A stretch of 41,397 nucleotides of DNA. It comes from Burkholderiales bacterium (lineage in GTDB: Bacteria; Pseudomonadota; Gammaproteobacteria; Burkholderiales; Burkholderiaceae_C). Below the pieces are notes generated by a model. The model saw nothing but the letters and a program-made list of their open reading frames with translations, searched no databases and was not told where the DNA came from. Positions 4,343 through 19,430 of the stretch are shown one piece after another (position 1 is the stretch's first letter; the number at the start of each line of letters is the position of its first letter). The position numbers and the translations under genes are program-made. The stretch is taken from assembly GCA_016191995.1 (NCBI GenBank), contig JACPVA010000068.1:1-41397 (forward strand), in the 5' to 3' direction.

Positions 4343-5296
<954 letters not shown>

Positions 5297-5362: not shown

Positions 5363-8113
5363 CTATCCCGACCACGCCGTCGTCATCAGCACCGCGAAGT
5401 CGCGCCGCGACAGCACGGCCGTGCAGTCGCGCCAGTCCTTATCGGGCGGCGCCATCGTGGCGGTGTAGCGAAGGTCGAAGCCGGTGGCCTCGCGCTGGGC
5501 GTCGATGTACTCGTCCATCTTCAGGCCCAGTGCCTCGATGTCGTCGATCCACTCGTCCTTGATCGTGTCTGGGACGGAGCCGAACAGGTCGTAGCGGTCG
5601 CGCATGCGGTCCGAGAGGCGGTCGTAGATCTTCTCGTCGACGGTCTGCTCGTTGACCAGGTTGAGCATGTCCACGGTGTCGCGCTTCTGGCCGAAGCGTT
5701 TGATGCGGCCGATGCGCTGTTCCAGCCGCGTCGGGTTCCAGGGCAGGTCGACGTTCACCAGCGTGCCCAGGGTCTGCAGGTTCAGGCCCTCGCAGGCGGC
5801 ATCCGTGGCCACCATGATCCGGATCTGGTGCTCGGCCACCATCTTCTTGAGCGTCTCGCGTTCGCACGACACGCTGTCGCCGCGCTGGTAGAGCCGGCTG
5901 CGGCCGGCACCAGCGTACAGACCGATGGCTTCATCCGGGTAGCGCTGGGCGAGCTGCTCCGCCACCCAGCGCGCGGTGTCGTAGTACTGGCTGAAGATGA
6001 TCACGCCCAGCTCCAGCCACTTCTCGCGGTCCAGGTAGTACAGCAGTGCCGCAAGCTTCGGGTCGGACTCGATCCTCTCCAGCCGGTTCAGCAGCCGCTC
6101 CAGGGCCTCGCGCTCGTCGCTGGTTTCAACGGCCAGCTCCGCGTCGCCCTCGTCTTCCTCGTCGCGCAGAGTCTGGCCTTGCAGAAGCGCTCGCACCGTG
6201 TTCAGGCCCGCGTGGATGGACGAGCAGATGCGCTGCTCCACCAGGTTCTTCATGAACCCGCCGCCGCCCCCGCGACCCTGGCCGCTCGCGCTCAACGCCT
6301 TGCCGAAGGCGCGTGCCTCGCGGTACGCCTCGCGGAAGTCCTCGCTGGTGCGCAGGGCCTTGGCCTCGAACAGCGCGTCGAAGCCCTGGGGCTCGCGAAC
6401 GAGCTGCCGATCGGGATGCACGTCCACGCCCACCCGTGCCAGCAGGCCGGCGTCCTCCAGGCTGACGCGCCTGCGCAGCACCACGTGGCGCACCAAGGGG
6501 TTCTCGCGCTGGAAGAAGGTGGCGCCGGACACCTGCCGGTGCAGCTCGTCTTCCAGAATCTCGCGCGTGTCCTCGCTCAGGTCGGCCAGCGACCGGGCGG
6601 TCTGGGTCTCGCCGTTCACCAGCCCCAGGTCCTGGCGGATCGCGCTGAACAGCCGCCTGGCGCGCGGCTCGCGCGTGGAGTCCACCAGCGGCAGCGGGGA
6701 CCGTAGCAGCTCCCACGCATGCTCGGCAGAGGTCACCTCCTGCCGGCCCGACAGAATCTCCAGCACCTCACCGGCCCGGTGCCAGGCCGCGAAGTCGTTG
6801 CCCAGCACGAAGTTGCCGCGCCCCTGGTGCAGGATGCCGATCAGGTCCCACAGGTCCTGCGGCTGCGTCTGGATGGGCGTCGCCGTGCCCAGCAGCACAT
6901 GCTCCGACCGGGCCGCGATCTCGCGCATGAAGGCCAGCAGCTCGTTCGGCGTGCCCGCGTCGGCGCCGAAGCCCTGTCGCGTGCGCGCCTTGTGCGCCTC
7001 GTCCAGGATCACCAGGCCGAAGCGCAGGCCGAGCAGGTGCTGCTTCTCGGCCGATTGCCGCATCATCAGCCCGGTCGAGACGATGCCGATGCGCAGCGGG
7101 CAGCGCGCGATGTGCTCGCGGCCGGCGGGCGAGATGGCCCGTTCCTGGTCATCGAGCCACACCTTGCGCACCGTGTCCCAGCGCGCGCACGGGATGCCCA
7201 GCTTGTCCAGCATCTCGGTCTGCCACTGCTCGCACAGCGTGGCCGGGGCAAAGATCACCACCGGCCGCCGGGCTTGCTGCTCGCGGTCGGCCAGCAGGCA
7301 CAGCGTCAGCGCCGCCGTGCCGAGTGACAGCGTCTTGCCCAGGCCCACCTCGTCGGCCAGCAGCAGGCGCACCACCTTGTGCATCTGGTGGTGGCGCAGG
7401 CACTCGGTCACGAAGCCCTGCTGCCACGGCTGCAGCGACAGGCCTTCGCGGTACAGCGGCGACTCGATCAGCGCGGCCGGTGCCACGTCGTCAACGCCCT
7501 CGATCTCGTCGAACACCACCTCGCGGCGGTAGCCACGCCGGTGCACCTCGCGGATCACCGCCTCGGGCAGCGGGCGCGCCGCGTTCCACAGGAAGTCGAA
7601 CTCGCCCTCGATCCAGGCCACACCCTCGGGCGACTCGTCTTCCCACAGGATCTCGTAATGGCGCTGCCAGCCGCTGCGGGTTTCGTTCATGGAGCCGATG
7701 AAACCCAGCTTGCGCCCATCAGCCAGCTCGATGACGCCGGCCTTGCCGTGCACGAAGCCGCACACGCTGTCGGGCGCCACCCGCACCGCCTGGCCGTGCC
7801 GCTGCAGGAAGGCGTCCAGCCGGCGGTAGCGGTCGCGGTTCAGCAGCGCCTCGGCCTCGATGGCCTTCTCGTTCCAGCGGCCCATCATCCGGGCCTCGCG
7901 CAGCTGGGCCACCTTCAGGTCGTCGGGGTGGATGTCGACGTTGCAGACGATGCGGACGTGCGGAATGCCCTCCAGCAGCTCGTGCGCCACCTCGAACAGC
8001 GAGCTGGTGAAGTAGCCCGCGATGCGCCGGTAGCTGCGCGCGCCTTTCAGGTGCTCCAGCAGAAAGCTGGCGTCCAGCCGGTGCGTGCGTGACGAGAACC
8101 GCCGGATGGACAT
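5363..8113 (-). CDS. Defence helicase: PLD-like domain fused to SNF2-type helicase
   Basis: A 916-residue protein, last gene of the six-gene defence operon. Residues 1-180 form a phospholipase D-like domain with one half-site, HGKAG at about 122-126 followed by GSMNETRSGW, so a full active site would need a dimer. The helicase part has Walker A DEVGLGKT near 254-261, DEAH at 371-374, GTATP near 409, and the C-terminal helicase signature LEQRIGRIKRFGQ. Such proteins are translocases/ATPases acting on DNA and recur with DUF499 and DUF1156 proteins in phage-defence loci (helicase of the 'Hma'-like set). The ATG lies 13 bases after the methyltransferase stop. The final residues (LSRRDFAVLMTTAWSG) appear intact. 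Confidence 0.88.
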   Translation of the reverse strand: MSIRRFSSRTHRLDASFLLEHLKGARSYRRIAGYFTSSLFEVAHELLEGIPHVRIVCNVDIHPDDLKVAQLREARMMGRWNEKAIEAEALLNRDRYRRLDAFLQRHGQAVRVAPDSVCGFVHGKAGVIELADGRKLGFIGSMNETRSGWQRHYEILWEDESPEGVAWIEGEFDFLWNAARPLPEAVIREVHRRGYRREVVFDEIEGVDDVAPAALIESPLYREGLSLQPWQQGFVTECLRHHQMHKVVRLLLADEVGLGKTLSLGTAALTLCLLADREQQARRPVVIFAPATLCEQWQTEMLDKLGIPCARWDTVRKVWLDDQERAISPAGREHIARCPLRIGIVSTGLMMRQSAEKQHLLGLRFGLVILDEAHKARTRQGFGADAGTPNELLAFMREIAARSEHVLLGTATPIQTQPQDLWDLIGILHQGRGNFVLGNDFAAWHRAGEVLEILSGRQEVTSAEHAWELLRSPLPLVDSTREPRARRLFSAIRQDLGLVNGETQTARSLADLSEDTREILEDELHRQVSGATFFQRENPLVRHVVLRRRVSLEDAGLLARVGVDVHPDRQLVREPQGFDALFEAKALRTSEDFREAYREARAFGKALSASGQGRGGGGGFMKNLVEQRICSSIHAGLNTVRALLQGQTLRDEEDEGDAELAVETSDEREALERLLNRLERIESDPKLAALLYYLDREKWLELGVIIFSQYYDTARWVAEQLAQRYPDEAIGLYAGAGRSRLYQRGDSVSCERETLKKMVAEHQIRIMVATDAACEGLNLQTLGTLVNVDLPWNPTRLEQRIGRIKRFGQKRDTVDMLNLVNEQTVDEKIYDRLSDRMRDRYDLFGSVPDTIKDEWIDDIEALGLKMDEYIDAQREATGFDLRYTATMAPPDKDWRDCTAVLSRRDFAVLMTTAWSG

Positions 8114-8126
8114 GGCGCTGTCTTCC

Positions 8127-11100
8127 TCAGACCCCGAAGCGCTGGTTCTTCAGCCGCGCGCCCAGCACCTCGGCCGCCGTGCGCACATCGGCCTCAGGAG
8201 CCTTGCGCTCCACGAAGGCCAGCAGGTCCACCAGCAGCGGGCGGGCTTCCAGGAAGTCGGGCATCTCGGCCTGCAGCTGGCTGATGATGGTCTGCGGCTC
8301 CAGGTCGGCGCGCATCTGCTGCAGCGCAATGACCAGCCGGCCCAGCCGCGTGGCGCCCAGCTCGGTACTGTCGGTCAGGTCGCGCGAGGCGAACTCGGTC
8401 GCCTGCTTCAGCCGGGCTTCGTTGGGCGCCATGCTGGCCATCACGCGGGCGTAGTCCTGCACGCGGAAGGCCTTGGCGAAGTTCTGGTAGTTGTCCAGCT
8501 TGCGGGCGCCCGTGGTCTCCATGTCCATCATGCGCAGCACGAAGCGCTCGATGCCGGACAGCTTGCCCCAGGTGTCTGCCGCCAGGCCCTCGGGCACCAG
8601 CAGGTTGCTGGCCGCTTCGGCGGCCTGCTGCACGATCTCGTCCACCACCGTGACCTCGCCCTTCACGCGAGGGCGCAGCGCGAAGCTGGTGACGTCTTCG
8701 CCGCCGATGTGGGTGTAGCCGGTCAGCACCTTGAGCGCCGCGGCGTAGCCGGCCATCTGCAGATCGGAGTCGTTGAACACCGGCTCGCCATGGTGGGCCT
8801 TCACGGCGGTGTTCAGGTGCATCATGGTCCGGATCTGCCGGTCCACCTCCTGCCGCACGGCCGGTAGCAGGCGCTGCTTGAAGGCGGGCCGGTCACCCAC
8901 CGGGCGCTTGCGCAGCATCAGCGTCACCGTGCCCTGCACATATCCGCCTTTCTTCAGTTCGGACGTGGTCTCGGTGGCGATGTACCAGGCCGCCACCACC
9001 TGCAACCCTGCGGCCCAGAAGATGCCGACGAGGTCGCTCCAGACACCGGTGTCCTGGTGCGTGAACATCACGCATTGCATGCCGTTGTCTGGCATTTGAT
9101 CAGTCATTGCCTTGTAGGCAGCGACCATGCCGCGACGGAAGTCTTCACCCGCACCCTTTATCGCTAGAGCACGGCGCGAATCCCAAACCCAGTCGCTGAA
9201 CGGGGCGGGTGCATTCTTCCTTAACCAGGCGATAAAGAACTCGGTGATTTCCTCATAGTTCACTGCGTCCGCATAAGGTGGGTCAGTGATGAATATGTCT
9301 TGACCTTCGGCAAGTTCGTTGCTTGGGGCGCAAACTATTGAGGTGCTGGTACAGATGGGCGTGCACTTATAGTCCTGCACGAAGCAGTGATCAAAGAATG
9401 ATCGGTTCGCCCAGTTGTAGAGAGTATTAAGCGCTTGATTTGAGAAGACATTGGAGGTGAAGTCGCTACCGCCGCCCGCAGAAAATCGCACAATCCAACG
9501 CGAAAGCTTTGAACAAAAGTCAAGAGTACCGCAGAATTCAGGAACCAACTCGGGTTGGCGAATGTGTTTCCGGAGCAATGCGAGCTTAAGGAGATCCCTT
9601 GGCGAGAACATGTGGTGCCAATGGGTCCATCCTCTCTCTCGAATCGGTTGCTCAGTGTTGTAGCCGGGTTCAATTGCCATATCTGGCACCAAACCATCGG
9701 TCTGCCAGCGCTGGAGATTTTCGGCAATTATTTCCTCAACTCTTCGCTCGTTCTGCAAGTCAGTTTCGCTTGGGGCCGCAAAGAATGTTTCCTGCCGCCC
9801 AGCCTCCAACGTGTCTTTTGTGATCCATTGAATCGCGTAAAGTCGCTCCTGAAGGATATCTTCAGGTCTCGGCTTGAAGTCGCTCTTGTCCCACAACCGC
9901 AAACGATTAGCGGTACTACCATCGTCTTTCCTGAAGTCTCCTCTCAAGGTCTTTATTGGGGTGCGGTAGGTCTTTCCGTTAAGTTCATACACCATATCCC
10001 CATCCAGCACCGTTCCCTTCTGCGCGGCCGCAACTTCATCGCTGGAAACGCCAGACTTCAGTTCGATTTCGAATCGTCTGCTTTCGTAGTTGGGCACGAG
10101 TTTCGCTATAACGCGCTGCCTTGGCGAAATGACCCAACTGGGTGCCAGAGGAATCATCCAGCCGGTTTCAGGGCATTTGGCCTCAATGCAGTATATGTAG
10201 GCCTTAATGCGATTGCCCGGCTCGTCATGTTCAATCCCAAGAGCGGTGATTTCGCGGTCTACAGCCTCCGCTACCTCTCGTTGGGCTCGTCTTATCTCTG
10301 TCTGGCGTTCGGGTGAGGCGCCCACGATATTGAGAGCGCCCCAAGTCAGCATGCAAGCGACTGGGTTTAGATCCGAGGCAAAAACATCGCAGCCGATACG
10401 TGCAGCTTCAAAAGGGATGGAGCCACCGCCGGAAAACGTATCGCCGACACGCGGACGATGACCGAAGCGGAGTATTCCAAGTTGCTCTACCAGCTCAGGC
10501 AGTGATGTTGCGCTTACACCTAGATTGGCATAATAGCGATTTATGTCTGCCCAGGCATTGGCATAAAGCCAATCTTGATCTAGCTCTTCTGGACGTTTTC
10601 CGAGACTTGCCTTTTCCTCGTAGGTGCCGTAAGTGGCGAGCACCCTGCGGTATATGACCAACTTTTGGTCATCGGTCAGTCCTCTTTGCCACCGTAGCGA
10701 AATCCCCTCTGCATCGGCATTCAGGGGAAAGCGCATCCAACGAAGATCGCCCCCCGTGACGCCGGATCGCTTGATTGTGGCCTTGAAGTAATTCCAAGGC
10801 GCGTCAAGCTGAATACGGGCGGCAATCTCCGCAGGCGATAGGGTGTTACTCGCCAGTACGCGCCTTGCCAAACCTTCATCGTCGAACGCCATCAGCTTCT
10901 CGAAGATGGCAAGGTCTCCTTCGGCATCCTCAGTGGTCGGCAGCAGACTACCGAGCAATACGGCTCGTACCAAGATCAGAGGCTTACGACCTTTCCAGTA
11001 GGAACCAAGTGCGGTCAAGGTCTGCCCTGGCCCGGCTTTCCGTTCCCTCTGTGCTTCGAAGGACACCTTCTGGGCAGGGAAGACGGACTCGATCAAGGCG

Positions 11101-11147
11101 GGCGCGTCGCGCAGCGCACCAGGGATGAGGATGGGACGTTTGGTCAT
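8127..11147 (-). CDS. DUF1156 DNA methyltransferase (N6-adenine/N4-cytosine type)
   Basis: A 1006-residue protein. The N-terminus carries the DUF1156 region (SVFPAQKVSFEAQRERK, then TLTALGSYWKGRKPLILVRA). The AdoMet-binding motif I is DTFSGGGSIPFEAAR at about 236-250 with ASDLNP following, and the catalytic motif IV is DPPYADAV at about 622, indicating methylation of an exocyclic amino group in DNA. It probably marks self DNA for the system. Bases about 9060-11060 (roughly residues 30-695) are much less GC-rich than the rest: three sampled 60-base lines gave 55%, 47% and 45% GC, against 65% in the 3' part. The gene is therefore compositionally mosaic. Nine bases separate it from the upstream gene and 13 from the helicase. 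Confidence 0.9.
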   Translation of the reverse strand: MTKRPILIPGALRDAPALIESVFPAQKVSFEAQRERKAGPGQTLTALGSYWKGRKPLILVRAVLLGSLLPTTEDAEGDLAIFEKLMAFDDEGLARRVLASNTLSPAEIAARIQLDAPWNYFKATIKRSGVTGGDLRWMRFPLNADAEGISLRWQRGLTDDQKLVIYRRVLATYGTYEEKASLGKRPEELDQDWLYANAWADINRYYANLGVSATSLPELVEQLGILRFGHRPRVGDTFSGGGSIPFEAARIGCDVFASDLNPVACMLTWGALNIVGASPERQTEIRRAQREVAEAVDREITALGIEHDEPGNRIKAYIYCIEAKCPETGWMIPLAPSWVISPRQRVIAKLVPNYESRRFEIELKSGVSSDEVAAAQKGTVLDGDMVYELNGKTYRTPIKTLRGDFRKDDGSTANRLRLWDKSDFKPRPEDILQERLYAIQWITKDTLEAGRQETFFAAPSETDLQNERRVEEIIAENLQRWQTDGLVPDMAIEPGYNTEQPIRERGWTHWHHMFSPRDLLKLALLRKHIRQPELVPEFCGTLDFCSKLSRWIVRFSAGGGSDFTSNVFSNQALNTLYNWANRSFFDHCFVQDYKCTPICTSTSIVCAPSNELAEGQDIFITDPPYADAVNYEEITEFFIAWLRKNAPAPFSDWVWDSRRALAIKGAGEDFRRGMVAAYKAMTDQMPDNGMQCVMFTHQDTGVWSDLVGIFWAAGLQVVAAWYIATETTSELKKGGYVQGTVTLMLRKRPVGDRPAFKQRLLPAVRQEVDRQIRTMMHLNTAVKAHHGEPVFNDSDLQMAGYAAALKVLTGYTHIGGEDVTSFALRPRVKGEVTVVDEIVQQAAEAASNLLVPEGLAADTWGKLSGIERFVLRMMDMETTGARKLDNYQNFAKAFRVQDYARVMASMAPNEARLKQATEFASRDLTDSTELGATRLGRLVIALQQMRADLEPQTIISQLQAEMPDFLEARPLLVDLLAFVERKAPEADVRTAAEVLGARLKNQRFGV

Positions 11148-11156
11148 GCAGCCGCT

Positions 11157-13112
11157 TCAGGCACGGTAGGCCTGGTCCGGGTCATTGGGTTTGTCGGGCC
11201 GGGTCATGGCGATCCGGCCGGCGCGCAGCAGGGGGCGCAGGTAGTTCTGTCGCACGGTCTCGGCGTTGCGGCCCAGCAGGGCCGCGATCTCCTCGGCGCG
11301 CCAGGGGCGCAGTTCGCAGAGCGCCACCACCAGGTCTTGCACCTCCTGCGGCGGGCGGCGCTGGCCGATGGCGCCCACCCGGGCGGCCAGGCCGCCGGGC
11401 AGCTCGTTCAGCAAGGCCTGGCGGCGCGGGTCGGCCAGCGGGTCATCCCGAGGTTCAGGCTGGCGAGGGTTACTGTCCTGGGATCCGAGGTTGCTAGACA
11501 AGGCGCCGGGGTTACTAGATAAGCCGAGGGGGTTACTAGACAAGCTGGCCCCGCCAGCGCCTTGGGCAGTAAGTTCGCCGGCGGTCTGGGCGGCGCCGTC
11601 CTTGCCGCCATCCTGGTCAGTGCGGCCCAGCATCCGAGCGGTGGGCTGGTACCAGGTGGCCGATCCGCGGTCCTTCTGGGTGAAGAGGCCGGCGTCGCGC
11701 AGCCGGCGCAGCGCCTTGCTGGCGGCCAGGGTGTCGACCTTGTTGATCTCGCGGTAGGTCTGGTTGTCCATCGCCCCGGCCTCGCGGGCCACCACCAGCG
11801 CGCGCGCCTCGGCCTCGGAGAGCTGAAGCTCCTTGAACCGCGCCAGCCAGGCCAGGTCGTCCGGCCCCAGGAAGTGGTGGAAGAAGAGGCGCAGCGTGAA
11901 CTGGTCCTGCCCGCGGTCAGACTCGAAGAGCGGCGGCGCCAGGCCGGCGCGCTCGCACATCTCTCGCATCACCCGCACGCCGCTGCCCTTGGTCTCGGCA
12001 AAGCGGGTGTCGTACAGCGCCGCGGCGACCTTGGGATTGCGAGGTACCGAGCCGGGTTCGCCCAGGTGGTCGGGGGACTTGAGCGAGAAGCCCGGGTTGC
12101 GGATCTCCAGCCGGTTGCTGTAGCGGATGATCTGCACCGGCGCCTGCAGCCGGTAGCTGCGGTGCATCAGCGCATTGACGACGGCCTCGCGGATCACGCG
12201 CTGGGGGACGAGCGGGCTGTCCTGCCGCTGCAGTTCGCCCTCGGCCAGGCCGAAGGCCTTGGGCAGGTCGTCCAGGATGGCGGCCTGCGCGCGGCGGATC
12301 AGGCGGAACAAGGGGTCGCGCAGCTCGACGGTGTCGAAGCGGCGGTCCGGGTCGGGCACCCAGTCGCGGCCGGGCACGCGGATGTAGTCCACGCGCGTCA
12401 TCGGAAAGCACCGGCGCAGCGCCACGGGTTTGCCCAGCAGCACGAGGCCGGCCACGGTGGGCTGCCAGGCGCCCTGCGCATTGCGGCGCACGGCACCCAG
12501 GGCCTGCAGCAGCTCTTCGTCGGACCAGCGCAGCTCTTCGGCGTCGGGGTTGGCCTCGCGGCGGGCGACGCGGTAGTCGGCGATGGCTTCGGGGGACAGG
12601 TCGTCGATCGTGGTGTCGGGCACCAGGCCGGAGTCGAAGCTCTCCACCTGGCGGGCCTGGTACAGCGCGATCAGGTCGTCTTCGGTGCAGCGCTGGTCGG
12701 TGCTGCCGATGCGGCGGAAGGCCCCGCGCGGCAGGCCTTGGGCCTTCAGGTAGACCGGCTTGTCCTGCGGTGCCGCCTCGGGCACGAACACCGCCAGCAC
12801 CGCTTTGCCTTCGAGCTGCTCGGTGCGCACTTCCAGCCGAACGGTCTGGTTGAACATGCTGGCCGCCTGGGTGGCGAGGTCGGCGCCGACGCGCTCGGGC
12901 TGCTCCACACCTTCCACCGAGTAGCCGGGGAAGAGCGCCATCTCCTCGCGCACCACGCCCAGCAGAAGCCAGCCCCCGCCCATGCCGGGTTCGTTGGCAA
13001 AGGCGCACACGGTTTCCATGACCGACTTGCCCACGTCGGAGCCGGCCTTGGCCTCGATGCGCTCGGTTTCGTCGAGCAGCTGCAGGCGTTCGAGCAACTC
13101 CTGGGCGGTCAT
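11157..13112 (-). CDS. AlbA/Schlafen-type ATP-binding winged-helix protein in defence operon
   Basis: From the ATG at 13112 (MTAQELLERLQLLDETE) it has 651 residues; the longer frame to 13406 is only the shadow of the upstream gene. The start overlaps the DUF3780 stop by four bases (ATGA). Residues about 15-140 match the AlbA_2 (formerly AAA_4) domain, with ERIEAKAG and AFANEPGMGGGWLLLG. Around 330-400, VIREAVVNALMHRSY and LEIRNPG are typical of the RecG-like/HATPase_c_4 ATP-binding domain. Next come a winged-helix region (TYREINKVDTLAASKALRRL) and a second HTH-like C-terminus (EEIAALLGRNAETVRQNYL). A low-complexity linker contains four 7-residue repeats. Role in the system is unknown: regulator, sensor or nuclease-related effector are all possible. 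Confidence 0.85.
   Translation of the reverse strand: MTAQELLERLQLLDETERIEAKAGSDVGKSVMETVCAFANEPGMGGGWLLLGVVREEMALFPGYSVEGVEQPERVGADLATQAASMFNQTVRLEVRTEQLEGKAVLAVFVPEAAPQDKPVYLKAQGLPRGAFRRIGSTDQRCTEDDLIALYQARQVESFDSGLVPDTTIDDLSPEAIADYRVARREANPDAEELRWSDEELLQALGAVRRNAQGAWQPTVAGLVLLGKPVALRRCFPMTRVDYIRVPGRDWVPDPDRRFDTVELRDPLFRLIRRAQAAILDDLPKAFGLAEGELQRQDSPLVPQRVIREAVVNALMHRSYRLQAPVQIIRYSNRLEIRNPGFSLKSPDHLGEPGSVPRNPKVAAALYDTRFAETKGSGVRVMREMCERAGLAPPLFESDRGQDQFTLRLFFHHFLGPDDLAWLARFKELQLSEAEARALVVAREAGAMDNQTYREINKVDTLAASKALRRLRDAGLFTQKDRGSATWYQPTARMLGRTDQDGGKDGAAQTAGELTAQGAGGASLSSNPLGLSSNPGALSSNLGSQDSNPRQPEPRDDPLADPRRQALLNELPGGLAARVGAIGQRRPPQEVQDLVVALCELRPWRAEEIAALLGRNAETVRQNYLRPLLRAGRIAMTRPDKPNDPDQAYRA
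11463..11546 (-). repeat. Four in-frame 21-bp tandem repeats
   Basis: Four consecutive 21-base units at 11526-11546, 11505-11525, 11484-11504 and 11463-11483 encode SLSSNPL, GLSSNPG, ALSSNLG and SQDSNPR. The core TCTAGTAACCCC or a close variant recurs in the first three; the fourth has diverged. The unit length keeps the frame, so copy number could change without breaking the AlbA-type protein. It lies in the linker before the C-terminal HTH-like domain. Confidence 0.85.
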
Positions 13113-13807
13113 GCCGTGCCGTCGCTGAACAGGTCGAGCGTCGGCCGCTCGCCCGCGATGCCGCTGTCGCGGGCGACCAGGCCGCGGCGCGCGCGCGGCG
13201 ACAGCAGCTCGCTCTGCGCCACGTCGCCCAGCGCGTGGCGCAGGGCCAGCCGCCAGCCCTTGTCGCCATCGCCGATGCCGCCCGTGCTCATCGCGGTCAT
13301 GCCGAACAGCCACCAGCGTTCTTCGGGGCGCAGTGCGAGCCAGTTGCGCACGGCGACGGGGATCTTCTCCATCTCCATGTGCTCGACGGCCCAGACCAGC
13401 ACGCACAGCTCCTTGCCCAGCAGCCGATCGACCAGGTTGTCGCCGGCCTTCCAGGCGCTGGGCTTGAGGTTGTGCGTGCTGAGCCGGGCATTGAAGGCGC
13501 GTTGCACATCGGCGCGGATGGCGGTCCAGCGCGCGCGGTCGAGCACGGCCCGGTCGATCACGGAGTGCTCGTCGCTCAGGGCCTGCAGGCCGAGGTACTC
13601 GCTCACCTGCACGGGGGCGGTGTTGCTGCGCGGGACGACCACCTTGAAATGGTGCGGGTCCGACGTGGCGGGCACGCCAAAGCCCAGCGTCGGGCGTGCG
13701 TCGCCCGCTGCGCCCAACCCAGCGGCCGCCGCGGAACCGGCTTCGCTGGGCCGCTGGCGGCGCCCCCCTGGGGGGGAGGCGCCGAAGGCGCTTCGGGGGG
13801 GGGTCAT
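13109..13807 (-). CDS. DUF3780 defence-associated protein with repeat-encoded N-terminal extension
   Basis: A 232-residue protein. The ATG at 13807 is preceded by AGGAGG inside the end of the DUF499 gene, one base after its TGA. The conserved DUF3780 body starts at about residue 41 (TLGFGVPATSDPHHFKVVVP), followed by VSEYLGLQAL, LLGKELCVLVWAVE and RNWLALRPEERWWLFGMT. DUF3780 proteins are small and of unknown activity, and are found beside DUF499 and DUF1156 proteins in phage-defence loci. Residues 2 to about 40 are Pro/Ala/Gly/Arg-rich and are encoded by a palindromic GC-rich repeat, which I read as an in-frame insertion after the start codon. A TTG at the GLGAAG segment is an unlikely alternative start. 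Confidence 0.82.
   Translation of the reverse strand: MTPPRSAFGASPPGGRRQRPSEAGSAAAAGLGAAGDARPTLGFGVPATSDPHHFKVVVPRSNTAPVQVSEYLGLQALSDEHSVIDRAVLDRARWTAIRADVQRAFNARLSTHNLKPSAWKAGDNLVDRLLGKELCVLVWAVEHMEMEKIPVAVRNWLALRPEERWWLFGMTAMSTGGIGDGDKGWRLALRHALGDVAQSELLSPRARRGLVARDSGIAGERPTLDLFSDGTA
13693..13804. repeat. GC-rich palindromic repeat inserted at start of the DUF3780 gene
   Basis: The core at 13759-13803 contains nested palindromes: CCCCCC/GGGGGG around TG, GGCGCC pairs, and CGCC-GAA-GGCG. Together with the adjoining segment ending near 13693 it resembles the dispersed intergenic palindromes I associate with Burkholderiales genomes. It starts directly after the ATG of the DUF3780 gene. The outer right limit is inferred from the point where the conserved protein begins. 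Copy number elsewhere in the genome cannot be tested here. Confidence 0.6.
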
Positions 13808-13808
13808 G

Positions 13809-16800
13809 TCATGCCTCCTGGACCACGTCGCCAGGCTTCAGCTCCAGGCCCACCAGCTTGGCGAACTCCTTGGCCGCGAAGCCGGTGTCGAAGTGGGCGC
13901 CGTCGCTGATGTTCACGACCACCGGCGCCTGGTCTTCGGCCAGCAGCTGGCGCAGGCTGTTGATCACGCCCTCGATCACGCTGGCGGTGACCTCGCGCTC
14001 CTGGAAGCGCACGGTCACGGTCTTCTCGCCTTCGCCGATCTCGATGCGCACGCCCTTGAACAGTGTGCCGGGCTGGTCGCGGAAGCGGTTGATGACGCCG
14101 AACACGCGGTCGGTGGTGTCCAGGCCGATGCGCTTGGGCTGCAGCTTGACGGGCTTGGTGTCGTTGATCTGGACGGTCTTGTCGCCGCTGGCCGGGATCT
14201 GGAAGTCGGCCGTCTTGTTGGCCTCGCCGGCGCGGGCGTAGACGAGCAATCGGGCCGCGGCGGCGCCGATCTCGAACGGCCCCTCGTAGGGCAAGCCGTC
14301 GCGCGGGTTGGAGCCGTCCAGCGTGTACGTCAGCGTGGCCTTGGGCGTGCACGCCAGCGTGACGCGGCGCTTGTCGGCGGCGGGCTCGACCTGGTGGCGG
14401 ACCTTCAGCTCGGCGGTCCAGCGAACGGGCGTGCCGGTTTCGTAGTGGCCGGTGTTGTCGCGGGCCAGGAAGTACAGCGTGCCTTCGGTCGTGGTGAAGC
14501 CGTCGAGATCCTCGATGGACTGCCCGTTCACCAGCCCCTCGGGGCGGGTGGCGTAGACCACCACCGGGCTTTCGCCCGCGTGGCGCGGCGTGAGGCTCAG
14601 GATGGTGGCGCCCGTGTCCGGCTGGCTGCCGACGACCGACACGTTGACCGTGGTCTTGTCCTTCGGGAATGGACCCTTCTCGATGTACCCGTCTTCACCC
14701 AGGCGCCAGCGGCCTTGCTTCAGGGCCTCGGCCTTCAGCGTGTCCATGCCACCCGAGCCAGGCATCCAGGGCCAGTCGGGGTTGCTCTTGGCGCGCGCGA
14801 CCACGTCTTTCCATGGCGTGCGGCGGTTGTCCTTGCCCGAGGGCCACAGAACCTCTTCCGCCATGGCGAAATACTCGCCGAAGCTGGCGGTCAGGTTGGC
14901 CGCGAGCTTGTAGTTAGCGCGCGGGCTGGCCAGCAGCGTCTCGATCTGGGCCTCGGCGGACTGCTCGCCCTTGCCGAGCTTGAGGCCGTTGTCGATGGTG
15001 ACGTTGGCCAGGAAGTGCCGGCCGTCGATGGGGTCGGTGCCCGGGAAATAGACCCGGTTGTAGGCGGCGGAGAGCGCCTTGGCGAAGCGGTCTTCCGCCT
15101 CTTCGAGGCGGTCACGTGCTTCCTCGAACAGGGTGTCGCCAGCCTTCAGGCGCTTGTGGATCTGCTCGATGGCGTAGAGCTCGCGCAGGCGGTCTTCCAC
15201 GGCGTCGGCCAGGTGACTATCCTGCCCCGTCAGCACCAGCAGATTGTTCTTCTCCTGCTGGTAGTCGAAGAAGTTCTGCAACTCGCTGGGCGGCACCTTG
15301 CCGTCCGGCTTGATGACGATGAGGGTGCGCGGGCCGCTCAGGCGGATCTCGTCGAAGCGAGGCAGCACCTGCACGTCCTGGTAGGCCTGGCGCCTGTCCG
15401 GCTGAAGGATGCCGGTGAGCCGGTTGATCAGCGCCTGGTCGACCTTGGGTTGCGGCACCTCCTTGGCGTTGCGCTCGATCTGGCGCGAGAGGTTCTCGGT
15501 CTCCTTGACGAACAGGCGCTGGTCTTCGCGGTGCAGGTACCAGGCTTGCTCGCGCAGCCGCTGCAGCGCTTGCAGGAACTCGTCGGGCTTGCGGCCGGGC
15601 GCGGCGAGGAACTCGATGACCTCGCTCTCTGACAGGCCGATGCGCCCGCCCACCGCGCGCGACAGCGACGACGCCAGCAGCAGCGTCATCACCTGGCGCG
15701 CCGCATCGGTATCGAGCTCGGCGTCGATGGTCTCGGCGATGGCGTTGCCTTTGTCGGCGATGTCCCGCGTGACAGCCGGCAGCAGCTTGGGCGCGATGCG
15801 CTCGATCTCGTCGCGCACCTGGTCATCGTTGAGGGCCAGGTGCTGGGTACCGATGAGGTGGACGTCGTCGTCCTCGCGCAGCGCCACGCTCTTGAGCAGC
15901 CGCGCGGTGAACTGCATCAGGCCGCGGGTCTGCCGGAAGCCTTCGTTCTCCTTGAACAGGGCCACGAGGTGCTTGAAGGACGGATGAAAAGGGTAGGTCT
16001 CCCGCACCTGCTCGGCGATCTGCTCGATGCTGGCTGCGACGATGTAGCCGGCGTCCTCGGCCTTCTTGACCTGCTGGGCGTACTCCTCGGCCACGTCCGC
16101 GATGACGCGCTCGCTGGGCATCTCGTCGATGAGGCGGGTCTTCAGGATCTCGTAGATCTCGTTGCCGGCCAGCTGGACCGGCGTGATCGTCATCGCCTGG
16201 CGGCGGGTTTCCTGCTGCAGGTTCGAGATCGCGTCGGCCAGCGCCTTGGTCTGCGCCTGGTAGCTGCCGGATAGGTTGGCAACGACGATGCAGCAGTTGG
16301 GCAGTTCCAGCGCCGCGCTCATCAGCGTGGCCAGCGAGAACACCACCATGTTGGCCAGCGTTCCCTGCCCGAAGACCTGGGTGCTCGCGTTGTCCAGGTA
16401 GGGCGGGAGTTCGTCGAGAAGGATGAGGGTCGGCTTGTCGCCGATGATCTCTTTCCACTTGGCCTGGTCGACGGACTTCGGGCCGTTGGCCCAGTAAGGC
16501 TTGATCGCCTCGGGCTCGCCCAGCTGCGTTGCGATGTCGCCCCAGATGTAGTTGTCGGGGGTGTTGCGGCCATTGAAAGCGGCGATGCGCGCCTGGCCGA
16601 AGTCGATGCGGTCCTTCAGGTCGGCAGGCAGCACCTCCTGCCGCAAGTGCGGGTGGCGCGCCAGCAGGCCCAGCGCGATCATCATGTGCGTCTTGCCGCC
16701 GCCCATCGCCTGGGTCAGCTCGAAGACCGCCTGGTCCGACTTGGCCGAAAGACGCAGCAGGCCTTCGCGGAACAGCTGCGCCATGCCGTGGGTGACGAAG

Positions 16801-16931
16801 TTGCGCGAGAAAAACTCACGCCCGTCGCCGGCGTCGTGAATGAGGTCGGCCAGGTTCTCGATGCCCTGGCTCATCCGGTAGTCGTGGATGGCCGCGTTGA
16901 AGCGGCAGGCCTGCTTGACAGTCTTGATCAC
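13809..16931 (-). CDS. DUF499 AAA+ ATPase of defence system
   Basis: A 1040-residue ATPase that starts with GTG at 16931, overlapping the stop of the small regulator gene by four bases (GTGA). Walker A is QAMGGGKTH at about 74-82 and Walker B TLILLDELPPYL at about 168-179. The N-terminal wording (HDAGDGREFFSRNFVTHGM) and this spacing are characteristic of DUF499 proteins, which recur with DUF1156 methyltransferases and helicases in phage-defence islands. Residues from about 480 on include a charged helical part (LKAGDTLFEEARDRLEEAE) and a beta-rich C-terminal region of unknown role. The family is established; the mechanism is not. No frameshift or truncation is seen. Confidence 0.9.
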   Translation of the reverse strand: MIKTVKQACRFNAAIHDYRMSQGIENLADLIHDAGDGREFFSRNFVTHGMAQLFREGLLRLSAKSDQAVFELTQAMGGGKTHMMIALGLLARHPHLRQEVLPADLKDRIDFGQARIAAFNGRNTPDNYIWGDIATQLGEPEAIKPYWANGPKSVDQAKWKEIIGDKPTLILLDELPPYLDNASTQVFGQGTLANMVVFSLATLMSAALELPNCCIVVANLSGSYQAQTKALADAISNLQQETRRQAMTITPVQLAGNEIYEILKTRLIDEMPSERVIADVAEEYAQQVKKAEDAGYIVAASIEQIAEQVRETYPFHPSFKHLVALFKENEGFRQTRGLMQFTARLLKSVALREDDDVHLIGTQHLALNDDQVRDEIERIAPKLLPAVTRDIADKGNAIAETIDAELDTDAARQVMTLLLASSLSRAVGGRIGLSESEVIEFLAAPGRKPDEFLQALQRLREQAWYLHREDQRLFVKETENLSRQIERNAKEVPQPKVDQALINRLTGILQPDRRQAYQDVQVLPRFDEIRLSGPRTLIVIKPDGKVPPSELQNFFDYQQEKNNLLVLTGQDSHLADAVEDRLRELYAIEQIHKRLKAGDTLFEEARDRLEEAEDRFAKALSAAYNRVYFPGTDPIDGRHFLANVTIDNGLKLGKGEQSAEAQIETLLASPRANYKLAANLTASFGEYFAMAEEVLWPSGKDNRRTPWKDVVARAKSNPDWPWMPGSGGMDTLKAEALKQGRWRLGEDGYIEKGPFPKDKTTVNVSVVGSQPDTGATILSLTPRHAGESPVVVYATRPEGLVNGQSIEDLDGFTTTEGTLYFLARDNTGHYETGTPVRWTAELKVRHQVEPAADKRRVTLACTPKATLTYTLDGSNPRDGLPYEGPFEIGAAAARLLVYARAGEANKTADFQIPASGDKTVQINDTKPVKLQPKRIGLDTTDRVFGVINRFRDQPGTLFKGVRIEIGEGEKTVTVRFQEREVTASVIEGVINSLRQLLAEDQAPVVVNISDGAHFDTGFAAKEFAKLVGLELKPGDVVQEA

Positions 16932-17128
16932 GAAGTGGCTCCCTTGGCCGCGCGCTTGTTGTTGCTGGTGTTGCCCGTGGCGATGCCCTTGAGCCTGCAG
17001 TGCTCGCGGATCAGCACCTCGACCATGTTGGCGATGGAGCGGTGCTCCAGCTCGGCAGCGCGCTGCAGCGCCTCCTTGATCTCGGGCTCGATGCGCAGCG
17101 TGAGAGTGGCGGTCTTGCTGGCGGCCAT
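16928..17128 (-). CDS. Ribbon-helix-helix (Arc/CopG-like) regulator
   Basis: A 66-residue protein from the ATG at 17128 (MAASKTATLTLRIEPEIKEAL). The longer frame to 17257 has no support. TATLTLRIEPEIKEALQRAA followed by RSIANMVEVLIREHC is the beta-helix-helix pattern of an Arc/CopG-type DNA-binding dimer. It is the first gene of the defence operon, so autoregulation of the operon is the natural guess. The C-terminal tail (GNTSNNKRAAKGATS) is basic. An antitoxin role is possible for this fold, but no toxin-like partner is adjacent. Confidence 0.82.
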   Translation of the reverse strand: MAASKTATLTLRIEPEIKEALQRAAELEHRSIANMVEVLIREHCRLKGIATGNTSNNKRAAKGATS

Positions 17129-17145: not shown

Positions 17146-17164
17146 GATGCAAATGTACTGCACC
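17146..17164. promoter_or_regulatory. Candidate promoter/operator of the defence operon
   Basis: A near-palindrome, GATGCA-N7-TGCACC on the plus strand (five of six arm positions symmetric), lies 18 bases upstream of the regulator ATG. On the minus strand it covers TACATT (17157-17152), a plausible -10 element; no good -35 is visible. GAGG at 17136-17133 could be the ribosome site. A ribbon-helix-helix dimer pair binding here would block the promoter. Evidence is only pattern and position. Confidence 0.35.

Positions 17165-17408: not shown

Positions 17409-19426
<2,018 letters not shown>

Positions 19427-19430
<4 letters not shown>

Follow-up and report, generated by a model that had tools for sequence, protein, structure and literature searches.

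A Type-2 BREX-Related operon with a mosaic methylase gene, a predicted operator, and a cargo slot

Does the six-gene operon at positions 5363 to 17128 of a Burkholderiales contig represent a distinct kind of anti-phage system, and why is its DNA methylase gene divided into two parts of such different composition? The operon lies in a 41,397-nucleotide stretch of DNA, hereafter called the window (GenBank assembly GCA_016191995.1, contig JACPVA010000068.1, positions 1 to 41,397 of the forward strand). A sequence-only reading had likened it to the candidate helicase-methylase-ATPase (Hma) set and suggested that it may be a separate subtype. On balance, we favor the interpretation that this Type-2 BREX-Related (BR) locus likely acts by methylation-licensed restriction, and that recombination likely replaced the predicted DNA-recognition half of its mosaic methylase gene, the remainder of the operon having kept to its clade. 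All six genes lie on the minus strand, as first described, and successive genes overlap by 4 bases (twice) or are separated by gaps of 1, 9, and 13 bases:

16928..17128, minus strand: ribbon-helix-helix (RHH) protein of 66 aa (Pfam), the predicted autorepressor of the operon
13809..16931, minus strand: DUF499 AAA+ ATPase of 1040 aa with a GTG start (NF042962, 1528 bits), Walker A GGGKT at residues 77-81 and an Fn3-like stretch at residues 854-907
13109..13807, minus strand: DUF3780 protein of 232 aa, the Type-2 BR marker (NF042961, 273 bits, cutoff 200)
11157..13112, minus strand: protein of 651 aa with AlbA_2 (Schlafen-like), HATPase_c_4, and C-terminal Fic-like_C domains (Pfam), the slot 1 cargo
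8127..11147, minus strand: DUF1156 adenine-type DNA methylase of 1006 aa (NF042963, 1346 bits), DPPY at residues 622-625, the mosaic gene
5363..8113, minus strand: PLD (H122-x-K124) and SNF2 helicase of 916 aa (NF042964, 1205 bits), the predicted restriction effector

Pfam upheld the DUF499, DUF3780, DUF1156, PLD-SNF2, and AlbA/ATPase assignments made on first inspection (DUF3780, 256 bits; DUF1156, 69; DUF499, 74; PLDc_2, 42; SNF2, 54; SLFN_AlbA_2, 44; HATPase_c_4, 59), and four of the proteins also exceeded the cutoffs of the NCBIfam "anti-phage" equivalogs NF042961, NF042962, NF042963, and NF042964. The "anti-phage-associated" names at NCBI reportedly trace to an earlier experimental screen. 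In the helicase, Pfam placed PLDc_2 at residues 19-176, SNF2 at 238-431, and Helicase_C at 703-808, with no further N-terminal domain match; the methylase has its DUF1156 domain at residues 22-84 in addition to the DPPY motif, and residues 854-907 of the DUF499 protein gave a CHB_HEX_C_1/Fn3_assoc match.

These assignments identify the operon as a DUF499-centered Type-2 BR locus, a published gene set of likely anti-phage type. The DUF499 protein scored 1445 bits against its PADLOC model (PDLC02192) and 1528 bits against NF042962, over a cutoff of 1200. The HmaA, HmaB, and HmaC models gave 130, 63, and 155 bits, compared with 1379, 1422, and 1445 bits for the same proteins' own PADLOC models; because the DUF499 score against its own model so exceeds that against HmaC, the operon is best classed as a cousin of Hma rather than Hma itself. 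The earlier likening was therefore right about the four-gene set, its anti-phage type, and its kinship to Hma, and wrong about the type, since DUF499 is that of Type-2 BR. PglZ, BrxC, and BrxL of the BREX core were not among the matches listed (PADLOC, NCBIfam) for the ten proteins scanned, and PADLOC matches of the helicase to BrxHI/BrxHII (113 bits) and of the methylase to PglX/PglXI (33 bits) lay far under those to their own models. The Type-2 BR system was published in January 2026 by Rakesh and Krishnan, who report it from 1120 taxa and infer a restriction-modification (R-M)-like mode of action (PMC12839542). As the core set is already described there, we dropped the claim of a new defense system.

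The methylase gene of this operon falls into the following parts, with third-codon-position G+C content abbreviated GC3:

9078..11147, minus strand: foreign-type segment, codons 1 to ~690 (GC3 and identity drop; 3' border sharp, 5' border sharp only against L003)
9288..10325, minus strand: predicted target-recognition block, ~codons 275 to 620 (fastest-turning stretch family-wide, placed between motif I and DPPY)
8127..9077, minus strand: C-terminal third, codons 691 to 1006 (90-98% identical to the nearest operons)

Relatives were drawn from 80 named loci, the best of 352 found, which with the window make 81 rows; DUF499 was alignable in 68 of them, the methylase in 55, and both in 51. Against the nearest operons with a whole methylase (L003 from Ideonella, L007 from Rubrivivax, L009, and L005), the window is 93-97% identical in DUF499, 90-94% in DUF3780, and 90-98% in the methylase C-terminal third, and 59-66% in the N-terminal part of the methylase; the helicase is 98 and 92% identical in the two nearest operons in which it is complete. 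DNA identity climbs from ~75 to ~96% at codon ~691 (window position ~9077) in three comparisons of three. The 5' border of the foreign-type segment is less certain, because identity falls from 93 to 76% at ~11140, near the start codon, against L003, and against L007 and L009 it remains mostly at 76-93% up to ~11050. GC3 is ~0.58 over codons 1 to 690 and ~0.93 thereafter, with 0.91-0.94 in the other genes of the operon, and this gap of 0.35 is the largest of 55 loci (mean, 0.115; standard deviation, 0.067). The sequence-only reading had made no mention of this jump. The two parts also have different relatives: the best N-part matches (79-81%) carry C-terminal thirds of 69-83% identity, and the best matches to the C-terminal third (97-99%) carry N-parts of 59-71% identity. 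In trees of 36 sequences hand-picked from 175, the C-terminal thirds of the seven members of the backbone clade formed one branch (support 99), and a single clade for the N-parts of the same seven was rejected (approximately unbiased test, p 0.0024); the window's N-part clusters with nine sequences whose C-terminal thirds spread over several other branches.

An assembly chimera in this one genome would be a trivial source of such a mosaic, and the genome is in 199 contigs and may be a metagenome bin. We nevertheless regard this as hardly credible, since the reading frame runs unbroken through the junction, a divergent N-part on a conserved core also occurs in isolates and a complete genome (L010, L011, L003, and L061 to L063), and none of 119 other listed proteins is over 82% identical to the window's N-part.

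Across the family, the predicted recognition block appears to turn over largely independently of the core. Among the 51 rows with both proteins alignable, the 24 pairs with DUF499 identities of 95-99% had median identities of 96.8% in DUF499, 97.2% in the helicase, 96.4% in the methylase C-terminal third, and 53.9% in the block. The block median was 57% at DUF499 identities of 90-95% (61 pairs), 55% at 85-90% (154 pairs), and 50-54% lower down, and identity of the C-terminal third tracked that of DUF499 at all levels. Dissociation was seen in both directions in a set of 175 methylases (14878 pairs; 119 of the sequences were selected for likeness to the window's N-part, so that the set is biased): 104 pairs combined a C-terminal third of at least 96% with a block of at most 60%, and 110 pairs combined a block of at least 85% with a C-terminal third of at most 88%, for example a block of 98% on a C-terminal third of 75%. 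In close-backbone pairs, 22 of 27 change points fell at codons 611-623, at the DPPY motif, and the other five fell at codons 633-685, including those of the window against L003, L004, and L007. The loci of a Nitrospira (L010) and a Stutzerimonas (L011) have DUF499 proteins that are 100% identical after rounding; their methylases are 96-100% identical over codons 1-225 where aligned, 36-78% over codons 276-625, and 90-94% over codons 626-700, with 82-97% by stretch after codon 625 apart from one stretch of 68%. Methylases of L029 and L036 differ mainly over codons ~401-625, the second half of the block, hinting that the region may consist of two exchangeable halves and that part-blocks may move.

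Fast point mutation under diversifying selection could in principle generate a divergent N-part with no exchange at all, and the high divergence of this part across clades, along with a GC3 offset in 54 of 55 loci, would fit such a process. It would leave unexplained the sharp DNA breakpoints (codon ~690 here and 611-623 in the 22 pairs above), the 110 reverse cases with a near-identical block on a distant C-terminal third, the conflict between the two trees, and the L010/L011 pair, in which diverged codons 276-625 are flanked by highly similar stretches (1-225 and 626-700), and we therefore consider it quite unlikely.

Several observations count against recombination of the recognition half, or limit how far it can be taken. 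GC3 of the N-part is below that of the C-part in 54 of the 55 loci and tracks host GC3 with a slope of ~1, so that part of the gap is a habit of the family rather than a mark of recent import; a GC3 regression to a shared pool was for the same reason dropped as proof of exchange. Since GC3 alone is weak, the case rests on the breakpoints, the two-way dissociation, and the tree conflict. The closest N-part among the listed matches is 81-82% identical, so we name no donor, and a plasmid search for one returned a best match of 72% coverage and 69.5% DNA identity. Near-copies often keep their block, because its median identity is 81.5% in the seven pairs with DUF499 identities of at least 99%. Neither the close-backbone pairs nor the rows are independent; L003, for example, equals L004 over the compared proteins. 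Within-species exchange was not seen in Escherichia coli among the 4 loci read of 17, three of which share one methylase accession with the fourth differing by one residue. Finally, the methylase structure model is poor (predicted local distance difference test [pLDDT], 53.7) and was too weak for use; the block was consequently assigned not by fold but by motif order and by the published account, which places the target-recognition domain as an insert after core strand 2 (PMC12839542).

We next ask whether the operon may be controlled by its first gene. A site precedes that gene, as follows:

17148..17162, minus strand: predicted operator TGCAGTACATTTGCA with 0 mismatches, lying 19 bp ahead of the start codon of the RHH gene

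The RHH protein is predicted to repress the operon through TGCAGTACATTTGCA, which is the only such site in the window at up to two mismatches and the only one in the whole genome at up to one. Its own assignment held in part: scanned as a longer 109-aa open reading frame (ORF), it passes the Pfam TacA1 threshold at 23.4 bits and falls under that of RHH_1 (18.7 against 20.5 bits), and the E. coli orthologue, annotated as ribbon-helix-helix, is over the RHH_1 cutoff. The regulator is not peculiar to this operon but regular in the family, lying ahead of DUF499 in 54 of 69 eligible loci (12 of the 81 rows were excluded for having no DUF499 start or too little upstream sequence). Upstream regions share the consensus site ataCtGta.a.TGCAGTACATTTgCAgt, and its 15-bp core, sought on both strands within 500 bp, was found at up to three mismatches in 53 of the 54 RHH loci (29 exact, 17 with one, 5 with two, and 2 with three), the exception, L024, having five mismatches. 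It was found in none of the 15 RHH-less loci, where the best sites had five or six mismatches, and elsewhere in the same loci the background was one match at up to two mismatches per 2.39 million positions. The sequence TGCAGTACATTTGCA is exact in all four E. coli loci read. On the other side, the RHH gene was not found in those 15 loci, and the pattern was derived from 49 of the RHH-bearing loci, so that their count is partly circular, a circularity that touches neither the RHH-less loci nor the background. In L009, the match to the operon starts inside the RHH gene; operator and the 5' part of RHH appear to have gone in a single loss there, so that the case counts as one event. Most of the other RHH-less loci are more distant from the window operon.

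The AlbA/ATPase gene is cargo in a slot between the DUF3780 and methylase genes and not part of the core. Its proposed role as the mark of a distinct subtype was not borne out: it stands alone in the slot in 7 of 81 rows (six, of which L005 is an internally deleted remnant, plus one at a contig edge), and one further row has Ppl with a distant AlbA relative. Elsewhere the slot is empty (29 rows) or holds DarTG (25), TIGR04255 (2), or other or unassigned content (13), with four rows not classifiable; empty and DarTG rows thus make up 29 and 25 of the 73 rows with no AlbA gene or relative. In two rows of the "other" group (L066 and L068), the DUF3780 frame is longer and there is no clear cargo. 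Profile scans of one or two representatives supplied each of the names DarT, DarG, Ppl, and TIGR04255; the remaining rows were assigned by tblastn. On the DUF499 tree (68 rows, 55 with a state), slot content changes six times, against a shuffled mean of 24.9; because cargo is this stable within clades, the slot is not fast-shuffling, a point against the favored reading. The AlbA rows form, with one empty and one TIGR04255 row, a nine-row clade (support 100). The branch to which this clade belongs is sister to a 25-row clade (support 100) with DarTG in most of its rows. L009 has a TIGR04255 gene followed by the last 78 AlbA codons, the fossil of a cargo replacement.

What this cargo does is suggested by its conserved residues. 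E15, E20, K22, E309, N313, G376, and G378 are invariant in 15 of 15 aligned AlbA proteins, one of which is 28% identical; the first three form what we take to be a Schlafen-type E-x4-E-x-K motif, and the last four are presumably GHKL-type residues. We lean toward a role as a backup RNase effector. Alternatively, though with less probability, the protein could be a DNA-binding regulator of the operon: its homologues are annotated as RecG-like or DNA-binding, Pfam gave a weak TrmB match and a Fic-like_C match, and matches of its low-confidence structure model include MarR-type proteins (E 0.004 and weaker). A regulator is already predicted in the RHH protein and its operator, the same slot elsewhere holds DarTG and Ppl, and both presumed motifs are retained even in the 28%-identical homologue, all of which speak against a regulator. 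The PADLOC matches, to pAgo and Aga models, were weak (59 bits or less), and there was no NCBIfam match. The protein matched PDB 3lmm and also 2kyy, a solved relative of its N-terminal domain, and the structure model (pLDDT 61.7) was unusable beyond the match of that domain.

A second slot lies between the methylase and helicase genes: at 15541-18687 of L007 it holds the PADLOC candidate PDC-M28ABC (a small protein, a ParA-like ATPase, and a second ATPase), and relatives of all three genes were found by tblastn in L009, L029, L035, L037, L075, and L077. Slot content also looks to be shared by BR and Type I R-M loci, because in one genome (G857) the hsdS and hsdM genes of a Type I R-M operon flank an AlbA homologue of 50% identity, and because an arrangement termed RRDM, in which DarTG is embedded in a Type I R-M operon that has a small repressor of its own, has been published (PMC12255303). 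Within the class, AlbA homologue hits numbered 2 in 274 genomes, those of G857 and of the present genome.

The operon's surroundings indicate an insertion site, bounded here by two genes:

4343..5296, plus strand: asparaginase gene, left edge of the insertion site (neighbor comparison)
17409..19430, minus strand: ABC-F ATPase gene, right edge of the insertion site (Pfam)

All five congeners retrieved lack the operon at this site and keep LexA, asparaginase, ABC-F, and the genes beyond in the same order, the distance from asparaginase to ABC-F being 1.1-2.7 kb compared with 12.1 kb here; the operon was either acquired here or lost in the congeners. A divergent DUF3780 lies elsewhere in one of these congeners (G719), and the asparaginase and ABC-F genes were not found next to each other in two other genomes of the family examined. 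With this genome counted each time, DUF3780 was present in 8 of 399 sampled genomes from the same family and in 7 of 399 from the same order, and the RHH-DUF499 stretch was matched over at least 80% of the query in 17 of 5426 E. coli genomes. In the four E. coli loci read (L122 to L125), the end of the helicase gene shares 4 bases with a gene for a restriction endonuclease, which Pfam classes as Mrr-type in L122. The DUF3780 protein is of identical accession in these loci, and in L122 it bears a DUF4357 domain at its C terminus.

Core gene sets are largely intact across the family. Relatives routinely short of two or more genes, which would have spoken against a coherent set, were not seen for the core, all four genes being present in 52 of 61 rows complete enough to judge; of the rest, four appear broken (L002, L032, L058, and L069), and five (L037, L070, L071, L073, and L079) have the helicase outside or only partly inside the sequence covered. 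The broken relatives would be in keeping with a pure modification or degraded module that has no restriction activity. We consider this improbable for the window, given that the Walker A motif of DUF499, DPPY, the PLD H-x-K, and the SNF2 Walker A and DEAH motifs are all intact here, that helicase H122, K124, Walker A, and DEAH are invariant across 47 aligned loci, and that DPPY is invariant in the aligned methylases. In L002 (Burkholderiales bacterium REEB187, 12573-15238), the operon is cut inside the methylase with ~75 codons left and the helicase is missing from the locus; a long ORF on the opposite strand after the remnant resembles, by eye, anthranilate synthase component I.

In Proteus phage vB_PvuS_Pm34 (L121, KY420199.1, 1105-2193), next to lysis genes, lies an ORF whose match to DUF499, at 66% identity, is confined to the C-terminal 174 residues; after it comes a DUF3780 protein of 171 aa with 70% identity over 154 residues, and no other core gene was found in the 7.6 kb read; these genes may be a captured scrap of the operon or possibly a decoy against BR systems. 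Eight of ten predicted viral contigs with DUF3780 in IMG/VR (L129-L136) hold at least two more BR core genes, and three have DarTG, reflecting either mobile-element carriage or viral bins that include host DNA. A further 571 Klebsiella plasmid records matching DUF499 were set aside, as those listed cover only ~70 residues and are not operons.

From these data we infer every biochemical step of a working model. The RHH protein would bind TGCAGTACATTTGCA and hold expression of the operon low; the DUF1156 methylase would mark one motif in host DNA, DUF499 together with DUF3780 would inspect DNA for the mark, and any DNA lacking it would be destroyed by the PLD-SNF2 helicase. A swap of methylase codons 1 to ~690 would then alter mark and target at once, since the resident partners would still accept the conserved C-terminal third, which is probably the part that docks. 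As a backup, the AlbA/Schlafen-GHKL protein would act as a suicide effector of the RNase type, a role that would fall to DarTG in the sister clade. More broadly, and with the balance of our judgment about even, Type-2 BR may be a retargetable chassis: a fixed core under RHH and operator control (ATPase, DUF3780, helicase-nuclease, and methylase C-terminal third), recognition blocks exchanged via motif I and DPPY junctions to re-aim methylation and restriction, and plug-in suicide modules (Schlafen-GHKL, DarTG, Ppl, and PDC-M28) in two fixed slots, drawn from a pool shared with Type I R-M. The DNA targets and control of BR systems are undescribed in the main texts that our literature search reached. 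If one methylase segment does set the target and is swapped naturally, near-identical operon pairs such as L010/L011 would be ready-made experiments for mapping and retargeting specificity; the predicted 15-bp operator makes control directly testable, and the slot ties BR systems to those Type I R-M islands in which DarTG is embedded.

Several known systems offer points of comparison. In Type I R-M, the target-recognition domains of HsdS are exchanged on conserved scaffolds, and the specificity subunit is separate, whereas here a single methylase gene contains both the catalytic and the recognition parts that vary. BREX PglX/BrxX likewise sets the motif for both defense and host methylation, but its specificity has been engineered and lies in a C-terminal domain (PMC11341690), whereas natural variation here peaks between motif I and DPPY. 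RRDM, in which the repressor RptR accompanies a Type I R-M system with DarTG2 embedded in it, shares with the present family a small repressor gene in first position, a conserved promoter site, and an embedded DarTG, and its layout resembles the DarTG clade of BR loci (PMC12255303). It differs in having a Type I R-M core and in that RptR is a four-helix protein binding TAGCTA (PMC12255303), whereas the regulator here is of RHH type by its orthologue's Pfam family.

Closest of all are the BR systems themselves. Hma, which is Type-1 BR in the published naming, has a DUF499-type ATPase, a methylase, and an Snf2 helicase in common with this operon, but it has no DUF3780, and its helicase has a C-terminal PD-(D/E)XK nuclease in 79% of taxa and no N-terminal PLD (PMC12839542); in the present operon, DUF3780 is present and Pfam found no PD-(D/E)XK nuclease in the helicase. 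Type-2 BR matches in its DUF499 with an Fn3-like stretch (FnIII-like domains precede a C-terminal RRM in 53% of Type-2 members), its DUF1156 adenine methylase, its standalone DUF3780, and its HKD(PLD)-Snf2 helicase, in which the HKD nuclease domain replaces TUDOR at the Snf2 N terminus (PMC12839542). Genes for Schlafen, histidine-kinase, and winged helix-turn-helix (wHTH) proteins are described as frequent in the neighborhood of BREX and BR loci, with at least 1017 taxa listed (PMC12839542). The main text of that paper contains no match for "RHH," "ribbon-helix," "DarT," "macro domain," or "recombination," and the operator, the DarTG slot, and the recognition-block exchange found here are absent from its main-text account. 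The gene content itself is thus known, and it is the operator-controlled core, the apparently exchangeable recognition block, and the cargo slot that go beyond the main text of PMC12839542.

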